Source: Candidatus Altimarinota bacterium
GTDB taxonomy: Bacteria; Patescibacteriota; Gracilibacteria; BD1-5; UBA6164
NCBI GenBank assembly: GCA_028689115.1
Contig: JAQTWV010000001.1
Coordinates: 1-64,000 of the forward strand
Length of the DNA: 64,000 bases
Direction: 5' to 3'
Part shown: one piece after another, positions 2,725 to 20,926 of the stretch
Position numbering within the stretch: the stretch's first letter is position 1
Layout of the letters: the number at the start of each line of letters is the position of its first letter
The notes under the pieces: model-generated
What the model was told of the DNA's origin: nothing
What the model saw: the letters and a program-made list of their open reading frames with translations, nothing else
Database searches by the model: none
Position numbers and translations under genes: made by a program

Positions 2725-2994
2725 ATGGAAGCTATCTTTGTTTTGGTTGTTTTTATTTTAGCTTGGCCTCTTGGCCTATTCATTGTTACGAACAATTTTA
2801 TACGATTTATAAGCTTTAGTGGTTATGATGGGATGAGACTTTTTTATTCCAAAGATACACCAGAAGAAGAGAGACAGGCTATTTATGACAAAGTGAAAAA
2901 GAGGGAAAGAATAACTTTTCTTATAACTGCTTTTATTGCTTTACCTTTGGAATATTATTGGTTTGCTTATTTGTATTCCAAATTGCCCTTTTAA
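2725..2994 (+). CDS. Small two-helix membrane protein, foreign-looking
   Basis: 89 aa, unrecognised. A hydrophobic N-terminal helix (residues 2-22) and a second near residues 65-85 flank a charged loop (TPEEERQAIYDKVKKRER). It has features unlike its neighbours: a strong Shine-Dalgarno (AGGGAGG, 2712-2718, 6 nt before the ATG), none of its glycines written as TGA, GC-richer codons, and its own promoter and GC-rich terminator. It is a self-contained cassette between native terminators. Compare the two small genes near 17 kb. Likely acquired from an organism with the standard code. Confidence 0.75.
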   Translation: MEAIFVLVVFILAWPLGLFIVTNNFIRFISFSGYDGMRLFYSKDTPEEERQAIYDKVKKRERITFLITAFIALPLEYYWFAYLYSKLPF

Positions 2995-15022: not shown

Positions 15023-16684
15023 ATGAAAAAAGATATTAATAAAATTTTAAAAATATCAATAATTACATTTTTTTGTTTAGTATTATTTTATTATTTATTT
15101 ATGTATAGTGTTAATTATTTTCATTCAAGTATGATGAATATTAATACATTAAGCAATAGTAAAAATGTATTAAATAATGTTAAAAATATATCAAAACAAG
15201 AACTTGTTTATTGAAATGGTAATGGTTTAATAGAAGAAAAAAGTCAGGAAATAATTAATTTAAAAGATTGAGATAATTATGAAATTGAAATAGTAAAAAT
15301 AAAGAAAAAAATTTGAACAAGAGAAGTTGAAATGCTTTCATATAATTGAAGTATTCCATGACCAATTATAAAAGCAAAGGTCTGAACAAAGGCTAAAATA
15401 ACAATTATTAATAAGGTCCCAGATTTAGAAACAACTTTGCATTCTCATTGATTAAGACTTAATGATATGTTTGATGGAGTTGTTAAAAGTATGATGGGAA
15501 AACAAGATCCAATTGTCTCTTGAAATAGTTTTACTTATGAACTTAGTTTTCCAGATGAAGGAGTATTTTGGTATCATCCACATTTAAGAGAAGATATACA
15601 ACAAGAACTTGGTCTTTATTGAAATTATATAGTAGAACCAAAAGATGAAAATTATTATTCTAAAGTAAATCGTGAATGACCAATTATTTTAGATGATATA
15701 GCTTTGAATTGAGATAAATTAAAACCTTTTTATAAGGATTTTACAAATTATGTTTTGATGTGAAGATTTTGAAATACTATGTTTGTAAATGGGAATACTG
15801 ATTATGAGTTTAATATGAAATCATGAGAAGTAGTTAGAGCTTATATAACTGATGTGGCGAATACAAGAGTATTTAATCTAAAAATACCATGAATTAAAAT
15901 GAAATTAGTTTGAAGTGATATTTGAAAATATGAGGAAGAAAAATTTATAGATAATTTAATTATTTCACCTTGAGAAAGGTATATAGTTGATTTATATGCT
16001 GAAAATTCTTGAACTTTTGAAATATTAAATTCGACTCCAGATGAAAATTATTCTATATGAAAAGTAGTAGTTTCTGAGGAAAAAGTTGAAACTACTTATG
16101 TAAAAGAGTTTGAAACTTTACAAAAAAATAAAGATATTTCAGCAGATATAGAGAAATTTAAACCATATTTTGATAAGAAAGCAGACAAAAATCTAAGTTT
16201 AGAATTATGAAATGTTGATAAAAAATGATGAATTGATGATAATAGTATGTGAATTATGTGATGACATATGATGTGAGATAATGATGAAATTGAGTGGGAA
16301 GATAATATGCCAATGATGAATAAAAATTCAACTTCACTTGATTATGAATGGAAGATAATAGATAAAGAAACTGGTGAAGAAAATATGGATATAAAATGGA
16401 ATTTTAATAAATGAGATGTTGTTAAAATTCGTATAGAAAATAGTAAAGATTGAGCTCATCCTATGCAACATCCTTTTCATATGCATGGGCAAAGATTTTT
16501 AGTTTTAGAAAGAAATTGAGAAAAACAAGAAAATCTTGTTTGGAAAGATACTGTATTAATAAAAACTTGAGAAACTGTTGATATATTGGTTGATATGAGT
16601 AATCCATGAGAATGGATGGCTCATTGTCATATATCTGAACATTTATTTTCAGGTATGATGATGCATTTTTCAGTGAAAGAATAA
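15023..16684 (+). CDS. Multicopper oxidase, membrane-anchored
   Basis: 553 aa. An N-terminal hydrophobic anchor (residues about 9-28) precedes three cupredoxin domains. Copper ligands: H140/H142 in LHSHGLRL, FWYHPHLRED, HPMQHPFHMHGQ and H534-C535-H536 in MAHCHISEHLFSGM, the last supplying the type 1 site. A Met-rich insert (SMGIMGGHMMGDN ... DNMPMMN, about residues 405-435) recalls the cuprous-oxidase insert of CueO. Located after copA, it probably oxidises exported Cu(I) to Cu(II) on the outer face. Very little doubt about the family. Confidence 0.93.
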
Positions 16685-16716
16685 AAAAACTCGCCCCTTG
16701 GGGTGAGTTTTTTTGT
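16685..16716. terminator. Bidirectional GC-rich terminator
   Basis: ACTCGCCCC-TT-GGGGTGAGT stem with A and T tracts on both sides; ends the copper operon and the convergent small gene. Confidence 0.9.
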
Positions 16717-16726
16717 TGCTGAATAA

Positions 16727-16948
16727 TCACTTGATAAGTCCTTTGTTTATCAAGAATTGTTCAACAGTGAGGTCTGAAACAAATTCACCTTCCATGGTAT
16801 GTATGTTTCCATTTGCACATAGTTTAAAACCAGTAGGTTCCCCATCAAGGTGAATTATCCTTTTTACATCTACCACCAATTTTATGAATCTATTGCTAGG
16901 TTCTTGAACGATTTTTTCCCAACTGTGGTAATATAATTCAAAGGTCAT
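16727..16948 (-). CDS. Small protein A, TGA-terminated, paralogue of protein B
   Basis: 73 aa starting MTFELYYHSWEKIV; the ATG is chosen because AAGGAGG (complement of 16954-16958 core) lies 5 nt upstream. The C-terminus MEGEFVSDLTVEQFLINKGLIK resembles that of protein B (TSGLFVSKDTVEEFCKSKGLIK). It ends in TGA and is followed at once by a GC-rich terminator. No internal Gly is TGA. In the host's code TGA would read Gly and translation would continue 28 codons through the terminator into sequence opposite the oxidase gene. This fits a gene from a standard-code organism. Function unknown; probably a small beta-rich fold. Confidence 0.7.
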   Translation of the reverse strand: MTFELYYHSWEKIVQEPSNRFIKLVVDVKRIIHLDGEPTGFKLCANGNIHTMEGEFVSDLTVEQFLINKGLIK

Positions 16949-16977
16949 TTTTTCCTCCTTTCTTAAAATGAGAGTAT

Positions 16978-17005
16978 ATATTATCACATAATGAAAAATA
17001 ATCAA
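16978..17005 (-). promoter_or_regulatory. Promoter of small gene A
   Basis: On the minus strand TTGATT, 16-nt spacer, TAATAT, about 30 nt before the ATG. Confidence 0.45.
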
Positions 17006-17026
17006 TAAAAAATTTTGAGAAAAAAC

Positions 17027-17055
17027 AAAACCTCGCCCGAAGGGCGAGGTTTTTC
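17027..17055 (-). terminator. GC-rich terminator of small gene B
   Basis: ACCTCGCCC-TTC-GGGCGAGGT followed by TTTTG on the minus strand, 16 nt past the TGA. Confidence 0.9.
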
Positions 17056-17067
17056 GTAGTCAAAGAA

Positions 17068-17268
17068 TCACTTAATCAAGCCTTTTGACTTGCAGAATTC
17101 TTCAACTGTGTCTTTTGAAACAAATAATCCAGAAGTGGTGTAGATTTTGCCATCTCCACCAACTTTGTAACCAGTTTCATTGTGGTTAAGGTAGATCTTA
17201 TTACCAAAACCAACCTTAAGTTGTACGTAGTTTCCACGTGCATCATGTACCATAATTTGAAAGGCCAT
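17068..17268 (-). CDS. Small protein B, TGA-terminated, paralogue of protein A
   Basis: 66 aa starting MAFQIMVHDARGNYVQLKV. The start is fixed by a GGAGG (complement of 17274-17278) 5 nt upstream. Ten glycines, none TGA, and the stop itself is TGA, directly before a terminator. It has a perfect consensus promoter. Shared pattern with A: a Gly-x-Lys-(V/L) beta pair, G-x-I-(H/Y)-T, then (E/L)FVS-(D/K)-x-TVE-(Q/E)F and KGLIK. Unknown function. Same foreign signature as gene A and the gene at 2725. Confidence 0.72.
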   Translation of the reverse strand: MAFQIMVHDARGNYVQLKVGFGNKIYLNHNETGYKVGGDGKIYTTSGLFVSKDTVEEFCKSKGLIK

Positions 17269-17299
17269 TTCTTCCTCCAATATAAAAATTAGCAATTAT

Positions 17300-17328
17300 A
17301 TTATAAGATATAAATGCTAATATGTCAA
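17300..17328 (-). promoter_or_regulatory. Consensus sigma-70-type promoter of small gene B
   Basis: Minus strand TTGACA (complement of 17323-17328), exactly 17 nt, TATAAT (complement of 17300-17305); the best consensus promoter in the window. Confidence 0.75.
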
Positions 17329-17358
17329 AAAAATAACTTCGAGTTTACTCGAAGTTAT
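17329..17358 (-). terminator. Terminator with the ZIP stop codon in its loop
   Basis: ATAACTTCGAG-TAA-ACTCGAAGTTAT stem then a T run on the minus strand; the loop holds the TAA of the ZIP gene. Confidence 0.85.
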
Positions 17359-18112
17359 GAATTAATTGTCAAAATAGGAAGAAAAGTAATATTCAAAATG
17401 TAAGAAGTAGGAAATATATTACTTTCTTTTTTGTATTTTCTTGATCTTTTATTTCTGGAAATATATCAGTTAGTGCGATGTATAAAAGTCATCCACAAAT
17501 TAAAAGTAGTATTTTAAATTGATTATTTATTAAGAAATCAATGAAAGGGAATGTTAATATAGCTCAGAAAACTCAACCAAAACTTGCTATATATGAATTT
17601 TTTTCATCTTTGTGATTCATAAAATAGTTTGAAATATTTTGAGGAATAGAATGAAGTAGTATAGCCACTGTTGTAGCAATTCATATTTCTAAGTTTATTG
17701 AAAATGCACTAAATAAAACAATTCAGTGAATAAAATTGTGTAATATAGTTCAAAAAAACATCATCTTATGTTTTAAATGTTCTTTTTGTAATCATTTATT
17801 ATGTCAGCAACTAGCTTCATGACTTAAATCCTTGCAATGATGCCAATGAAGAAATAATTCTAGAAAATAAAAAGCAATTATTCAAAGAAGTATAAAAAGT
17901 CAAAATTCAGTTCCTGTTAAATTTCAAGAATCCAAAACTTCTGGAATAAATCATAGAAAAATAATTCAAAAAATTACTCATATAGTTATAGAAGTAACAT
18001 ATTCTATATTATTAGAAACATTTTTTTTAAATGTTTTTAAAAGAAATATTATAAAAATAATACTTATTGAAATAACCAAATTTCAAATAAGAGTTCATAA
18101 GAATGCATTCAT
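17345..18112 (-). CDS. ZIP-family metal transporter
   Basis: 255 aa, about eight hydrophobic helices. The helix IV motif HNFIHGIVLFSAF and helix V motif LLHSIPQNISNYF are the H-N-x-x-D/H-G and H-x-x-P metal-binding signatures of ZIP transporters. Between helices III and IV lies a His-rich loop (LHWHHCKDLSHEASCGHNK), a probable zinc-binding segment. It would import Zn or another divalent metal. Adjacent to the Fur-family regulator (7 nt), consistent with zinc control. Confidence 0.87.
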
Positions 18113-18119
18113 TTTTTTT

Positions 18120-18524
18120 TTAATTATTAAGTAAACAATTTTTACAAGTTCCAATAATTCATATATTATGAGATTTTATCATAAATCACATATTTTTAGC
18201 TTCTTCAAATATTTTTTTACAAATATCATTTGAATGAAATGTAATTATAGAATTACAAATATTACATTTCATATGTTCATGATGATGGTTTTCGTCATTT
18301 AATTCATAACTTATAGCACTTTCTCATATATCAATCTTTCTAATAATTGATAAATCCAAAAATAAATTTATAGTTCTAAAAATACTAGCTCTTCATAGAC
18401 TTTTAAAATTATCTAAAATATCATTATAAGTAAATAAGTGTTTTGTTTTTATATAATCAAAAATAGCTATTCTTTCCGGAGTAACTCTATTTTGATTTTT
18501 TTTTAAAATATTTTCTATGTTCAT
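18120..18524 (-). CDS. Fur/Zur-family metalloregulator
   Basis: 134 aa. N-terminal winged helix (NRVTPERIAIFDYIKTK ... FTYNDILDNF ... RASIFRTINLFLDLSIIRKI) with the Fur pattern of R-x-T-x-x-R and a recognition helix, followed by a metal-binding region NDENHHHEHMKCNIC and a C-terminal CKNC that would make the structural Zn site. Probably senses zinc and represses the adjacent ZIP gene 7 nt downstream. Zur is more likely than Fur from its neighbour, not from sequence. Confidence 0.88.
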
Positions 18525-20734: not shown

Positions 20735-20926
20735 ATGTATAACGGTAAAGTAAAATTTTTTAATGATACTAAAGGTTTTGGGTTTATTATTGATAATGAA
20801 TCTAGTCAAGAATATTTTGTTCACATCTCTGGTGTAAACGGACAAATTAAAGAAGGTGATGAAGTTCAATACGAAGTTGAACAAGGAAAAAGAGGTTTAA
20901 ATGCAGTTAATGTTCAAGTAATATAA
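20735..20926 (+). CDS. Cold-shock domain protein
   Basis: 63 aa. NGKVKFFNDTKGFGFI contains RNP1-like KGFGFI, and YFVHIS is RNP2; the remainder GDEVQYEVEQGKRGLNAVNVQV completes the OB fold. It binds single-stranded RNA/DNA and acts as an RNA chaperone. No TGA codons are used among its glycines, as may be expected of a short, highly expressed gene; the leader has no Shine-Dalgarno, unlike the foreign-looking small genes. Confidence 0.93.
   Translation: MYNGKVKFFNDTKGFGFIIDNESSQEYFVHISGVNGQIKEGDEVQYEVEQGKRGLNAVNVQVI

Follow-up and report, generated by a model that had tools for sequence, protein, structure and literature searches.

The window analyzed here is a stretch of 64,000 nucleotides, bases 1-64000 of contig C3 of a source genome (G000) of 1.23 Mb and 23% GC, whose assembly is approximately 80% complete and of which 95% of the bases were read. 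It contains two small genes, A and B, that read in the standard code and are flanked by native genes in which TGA encodes glycine (code 25; Table 1). The first-pass annotation had described the two as paralogs that stop at TGA ahead of strong terminators, carry a Shine-Dalgarno (SD) site 5 nt from the ATG and write all of their glycines as GGN. Our analysis confirms this: the proteins align at 37% over 65 amino acids (E 1e-14), GC-rich hairpins with T runs lie 13-14 nt downstream of the TGA in both genes, and the five glycines of A and the nine of B are GGN throughout (14/14), with TGA at 0 of 14. In the 709 long native ORFs of G000, TGA accounts for 14,999 of 20,151 glycine codons (74%), and measured against this share the GGN-only pattern of A and B is far beyond chance, with a probability of about 0.254^14 = 5e-9. 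The claim of good promoters was correct for B, where the -35 and -10 hexamers are perfect, and not for A, with an 8/12 match. As had also been noted, reading UGA as glycine would carry both frames across the hairpin without meeting a stop.

Table 1. Features of the A/B locus and a further standard-code gene of the window
Feature	Position	Strand	Description
Gene A	16727..16948	-	73 aa in the standard code; stop TGA; paralog of B
Gene B	17068..17268	-	66 aa in the standard code; stop TGA at 17070..17068
Shine-Dalgarno site of A	16954..16958	-	GGAGG, 5 nt before ATG
Shine-Dalgarno site of B	17274..17278	-	GGAGG, 5 nt before ATG
Promoter of B	17300..17328	-	TTGACA (17328..17323), 17 nt, TATAAT (17305..17300)
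Terminator of B	17021..17054	-	CCTCGCCC-GAA-GGGCGAGG and T run; begins about 14 nt past TGA
Bidirectional terminator	16688..16716		serves A and also the native multicopper-oxidase gene that converges on it
Multicopper oxidase-like native neighbor	15023..16684	+	code 25; 32 internal TGA (Gly)
ZIP-like metal transporter, native neighbor	17345..18154	-	code 25; 18 internal TGA (Gly)
Third standard-code gene	2725..2994	+	89-aa membrane protein; SD GGGAGG; stop TAA; terminator

The native background is a different one, as the first-pass annotation had correctly observed. TGA is present in 707 of the 709 long ORFs, and GGAGG occurs within 20 nt upstream of only one of them. The 16S tail (3' ends, L087-L091) reads GGACUAUCUCCUUAU and not GGAUCACCUCCUUA, so that the anti-SD core is altered, and SD sites are nearly absent from native genes; the tail AUCUCCUUA is nevertheless still able to pair with the SDs of standard-code genes. 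No release factor 2 (RF2) was found in G000, in line with a report that BD1-5 genomes lack it (PMC6851277), a tRNA with the anticodon UCA is present, and tmRNA is present in the family. Recoding of UGA to glycine and of CGG/CGA to tryptophan has been described in Absconditabacteria/Gracilibacteria (Shulgina and Eddy 2021, PMC8629427). Note that native ribosomal-protein genes likewise avoid TGA, without an SD, so that the absence of internal TGA is weak evidence by itself and was not used alone. A cold-shock-like protein in the window (20735-20926, + strand), with no TGA and no SD, is probably a highly expressed native gene of this kind, as are those for L1, EF-Ts and L7/L12.

An AlphaFold model of the 66-residue product of B (pLDDT 90) confidently predicts a small beta-rich domain with a C-terminal helix. 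A fold search of this model against the PDB and viral libraries returned no convincing match, and neither A nor B was assigned to a family in Pfam, PHROGs or NCBIfam. Being small and conserved, B may be regarded as a candidate effector. An assembly artefact or contamination was considered and ruled out, as identical features recur in many assemblies with native flanks.

The B family and the class of standard-code genes

A search with B, followed by a profile search, revealed relatives in four of the genus's five other genomes; within the family they extend to at least seven more genera, which makes at least eight in total. The stop is TGA in 16 of 18 copies and an internal TGA occurs in none of the 18; the two exceptions are a tandem, diverged pair in one genome (G014:C6:158268-158722; L064, L065) that ends in TAA. 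GGAG or GGAGG precedes the start in nearly all copies, and the genes flanking them carry many internal TGA glycine codons. Protein identity between genera is about 35-55%, and within the genus the TGA stops of B are conserved over a dS of about 0.8. In four genera the gene stands directly before a recJ/DHH gene, which argues that the family was inherited. No match to B was found in phages, plasmids or IMG/VR, and a search of other families of the class gave two marginal, unconvincing hits only, in family f13; the B family thus appears to be confined to this code-25 family, which, judging by its code and relatives, is taken as Gracilibacteria-type.

The first-pass annotation had interpreted A and B as recently transferred from a standard-code bacterium, possibly the host. 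Of this, the standard code and the direction in which it points, toward a standard-code bacterium that is possibly the host, have stood; the recent arrival fails, given a distribution over at least eight genera in which the TGA stops were kept. As evidence against its interpretation it had named homologs restricted to code-25 genomes with conserved extended C-termini. The restriction is indeed observed, but the sequence past the TGA is not conserved; most copies have no TAA or TAG before the T run, and at least three have a TAA ahead of the hairpin. The one exception is a copy in G008 (L055), where the five residues past the TGA read GLIKK, similar to the C-terminus KGLIK of B, either by chance or because a glycine codon was turned into UGA.

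A and B are not alone. A scan of G000 for ORFs in the standard code that have both an SD and a terminator yielded about 20 more, for a set of about 22 genes in which TGA makes up 0 of 130 glycine codons and the stops are TGA in 13, TAA in eight and TAG in one. Strong terminators follow 16 of the 22, as opposed to 30 of 709 native ORFs. A codon-usage score set exactly three long ORFs apart from the other 706; the training set partly covered these three, while it did not cover the gap to the remaining ORFs. They encode an NhaD Na+/H+ antiporter (418 aa), a CDP-alcohol phosphatidyltransferase of the PgsA type and a 277-aa membrane-anchored protein, and among the small members are an acyl carrier protein (ACP) and a secreted glucosaminidase. 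The genes are scattered, monocistronic or in small operons with their own SDs, promoters and terminators, and are flanked by native genes, with some of the neighbors conserved. Orthologs of nearly all of them exist in the genus, and of some across the family; those of the third standard-code gene of the window, in G001 and G002, share its features. Apart from B, about 15 families with about 50 ortholog copies contain no internal TGA, and TGA, TAA and TAG replace one another between orthologs at the same C-terminal position. This exchange is direct evidence that UGA is a stop in the standard-code genes.

The signals that accompany these genes are less decisive with regard to where they are used. 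SDs in the B family are mostly GGAGG, while GGAGA, which suits the altered 16S tail UCUCC, is frequent among the other standard-code genes of G000; the type of SD therefore does not discriminate between the ribosomes of a host and those of the carrier. TTGAC lies upstream of 18 of the 22 genes and of 16% of those native genes whose upstream region is free, but the native rRNA genes and some tRNA genes have it as well, and the promoter type is therefore not decisive either. A shared RNA export motif was sought in the 5' and 3' UTRs, and the enriched words were those of promoter and terminator only. In a genome of f13, another code-25 family (G133, L267), a PgsA-like gene has TGA at 0 of 13 glycines and no SD; the phenomenon may extend past the family studied here.

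Codon CGG, NhaD and isolated pathway steps

A second codon differs between the two gene sets. In native genes of G000 compared with those of G022, a genome from a second genus, CGG aligns to tryptophan 17 times and to arginine once, matching the reported CGG reassignment in some Gracilibacteria (PMC8629427). In standard-code genes it aligns only to arginine, in 8 of 8 informative ortholog comparisons, which are few and partly dependent. One CGG of PurL sits at a conserved arginine, and other comparisons of PurL, PurM and PurB with E. coli were uninformative for CGG at low identity; A and B themselves contain no CGG. CGA supplies 9 of 97 arginine codons in the standard-code set, as against 10 of the 7901 that native G000 genes contain, and no tRNA able to read it was found in the 95% of G000 or the 87% of G022 that were searched. 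In native genes of G022 CGA is still arginine, so that one family seems to display different stages of arginine-codon reassignment, with CGA almost unused in G000. The chromosome is thus shown to carry a set of genes in a separate, standard code (UGA stop, CGG arginine, CGA in use) next to native genes in which UGA is glycine and CGG tryptophan, and the meanings of UGA and CGG change together between the two sets.

For NhaD, versions in both codes can be compared. Standard copies, with no TGA, an SD and all kinds of stop, are found in G000, G004, G005, G033 and G023:C28, and code-25 copies, with 19-28 TGA, no SD and TAA or TAG stops, in G023:C35, G013 and G010; G023 holds both. In a tree, the standard NhaD of the genus stands beside marine Gammaproteobacteria and the remaining standard copies elsewhere, on long branches that make the exact placements unsure. 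The scattered placement suggests that standard NhaD copies arose more than once. Between genomes of the genus, standard-code genes show a dS of 0.3-2.3 and dN/dS of 0.04-0.37, their GC is held at 31-45% versus 23% for the genome, and TGA is zero in all of them. At such distances there was time enough for TGA to enter, and it was excluded. By these measures the standard-code genes are orthologs of old standing on which purifying selection acts.

The one-contig genome G022, which has no B, was scanned over 1.2 Mb (89%), with 32 kb masked. Here TGA represents 58% of the glycine codons of native genes (first 800 kb), and 44 standard ORFs follow SD hexamers, compared to 3-6 per scrambled hexamer. 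Their stops are TAA in 31, TGA in eight and TAG in five, and the standard-code set of this genome exceeds 40 genes. It includes a PurL of 1262 amino acids with 112 glycines, all GGN, as well as PurM, a PurC-PurE fusion, PurB, a DapD of the gammaproteobacterial type, a glycosyltransferase and several lipoproteins, and in one pair the TGA stop overlaps the next start as ATGA. All seven genera that yielded a DapD have it in the standard code (7/7), while PurN is in code 25 wherever found: at G022:C1:311057-311953 (L290), standard-code PurL and PurM are separated by a PurN-like gene that contains 16 TGA, each of them having a promoter and a terminator of its own.

Several of these enzymes stand without their pathway in the carrier. 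As evidenced by tblastn with E. coli queries, which on incomplete assemblies can miss diverged genes, FabD, FabF and FabH were not detected in G000, and G022 returned neither DapA, DapB and DapE, although LysA is present in code 25, nor PurF, PurD, PurH and PurK, in spite of the standard-coded PurL, PurM, PurC-PurE and PurB. AcpS is likewise absent from six genomes of the genus although ACP is conserved, and one gracilibacterium has been judged to depend wholly on external fatty acids (PMC6851277). Without their partners, the ACP, DapD and Pur steps make sense only within the complete pathway of another cell.

Possible explanations

The explanation we favor, with a probability of roughly 0.65, is that tens of genes per genome are kept in the standard code for translation by a standard-code bacterial host or prey. 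Slightly less firmly, we would describe the carrier as a symbiont or predator with a private code whose host-code genes are silent or garbled at home and are expressed only in the host, after delivery of RNA or DNA. Place of expression and delivery are what we infer from the above. The mRNA or DNA of the standard-code genes would reach the host cytoplasm by RNA export, DNA release or cytoplasmic continuity as candidate routes, and host ribosomes with RF2 would make the proteins, which may feed or remodel the host in lipid, lysine/DAP and purine steps, Na+/H+ balance and the cell wall. At home, a UGA-ended message would be read through its terminator without a stop, and its product, given the presence of tmRNA, would probably receive a tag and be degraded. 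Against expression in the host, TAA is the stop of most standard-code genes in G022, whose products the carrier could make as well, and the pairing of the 16S tail with the SDs, together with the native TTGAC promoters, leaves the site of action undecided. The code-25 PurN beside PurL is the main misfit to this interpretation.

Repeated transfer from standard-code hosts into the symbiont, of genes that are expressed at home and have not yet acquired TGA as glycine, is an unlikely alternative, although the next best one. The proteobacterial character of some members, NhaD next to marine Gammaproteobacteria and DapD of gammaproteobacterial type, would be accounted for, as would a GC content above that of the genome. 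Yet orthologs at a dS of up to 2.3 still have no TGA where it makes up 58-74% of native glycine codons, the TGA stops of B are conserved across genera, B has no relatives outside the family, and the carrier would misread both CGG and UGA. For recent transfer in particular, a patchy occurrence lacking old orthologs is not what we see, with at least eight genera and conserved neighbors, and conservation already disfavors transfer as an explanation.

Two further possibilities appear improbable to a similar degree. A second decoding mode in the carrier itself, in a special life stage or with specialised ribosomes for which UGA is a stop and CGG arginine, could employ the SD to mark messages for separate initiation, as the 16S tail can pair with it. 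However, it would have to operate with the UCA-anticodon tRNA present and without RF2, which is missing from G000 as from BD1-5 genomes (PMC6851277), and it requires two codon changes simultaneously. Alternatively, the genes might be carried by phages, plasmids or other mobile elements moving back and forth between hosts of either code. Standard-code phages of Gracilibacteria have been reported (PMC10746230), and many members of the set are small and of no known function, but the reported phages avoid the TGA stops that the standard-code genes use. Collections of phages, plasmids and IMG/VR contain no B, and the genes are dispersed among native genes with conserved neighbors, such as recJ in four genera.

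Least probable of all is a regulation resembling that of ArfA, in which readthrough of UGA as glycine into the terminator creates a nonstop mRNA and a tmRNA-tagged product unless rescue fails; tmRNA in the family and the lack of TAA or TAG before the T run in most B copies would suit it, whereas the free swap of TGA for TAA or TAG in other families, the TAA before the hairpin in at least three B copies, by which the frame is not consistently free of stops, and the use of CGG/CGA and the orphan enzymes, which it does not explain, speak against it. Each of these rivals, unameliorated transfer, second decoding, mobile cargo and nonstop regulation, leaves at least one established fact unexplained.

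Relation to known systems

The side-by-side use of two codes on a single chromosome, divided gene by gene, would be a novelty, and if expression in a host or prey is the correct explanation, one bacterium passes genetic information into another in a form that can be translated there. This would provide a handle on the open question of how host-dependent Gracilibacteria, mostly without a known host, live on others. The code difference would label each such gene, so that host-directed functions could be read from any genome of the group, and the list of functions (lipid, lysine/DAP, purine, ion balance, cell wall) leads to testable predictions on host effects. For annotation it is a warning, as the standard-code genes are garbled under code 25 alone and all others under code 11 alone.

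Phage auxiliary metabolic genes, for example the pur genes of cyanophages, are a familiar case of a parasite that carries single steps of its host's pathways. The genes described here resemble them in representing individual steps that are useful only inside the pathway of the host and in carrying signals that the host can read, but they reside on a cellular chromosome with an incompatible code of its own and are not accompanied by virus genes. In E. coli ArfA, a terminator lies inside a potential reading frame, and nonstop mRNA and tmRNA are involved, as they may be here; the interchange of stops and the difference in a second codon are not covered by the ArfA scheme. Phages of Gracilibacteria and Absconditabacteria that use the standard code avoid the TGA stop and so work in both hosts (Liu et al. 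2023, PMC10746230). They too are standard-code genes tied to UGA-glycine bacteria, but those found here are chromosomal and conserved and do have TGA stops. Finally, the native genes agree with the recoding described by Shulgina and Eddy (2021, PMC8629427) in that UGA is glycine and CGG tryptophan, while the standard-code set reads both codons in the standard way within the same genome.
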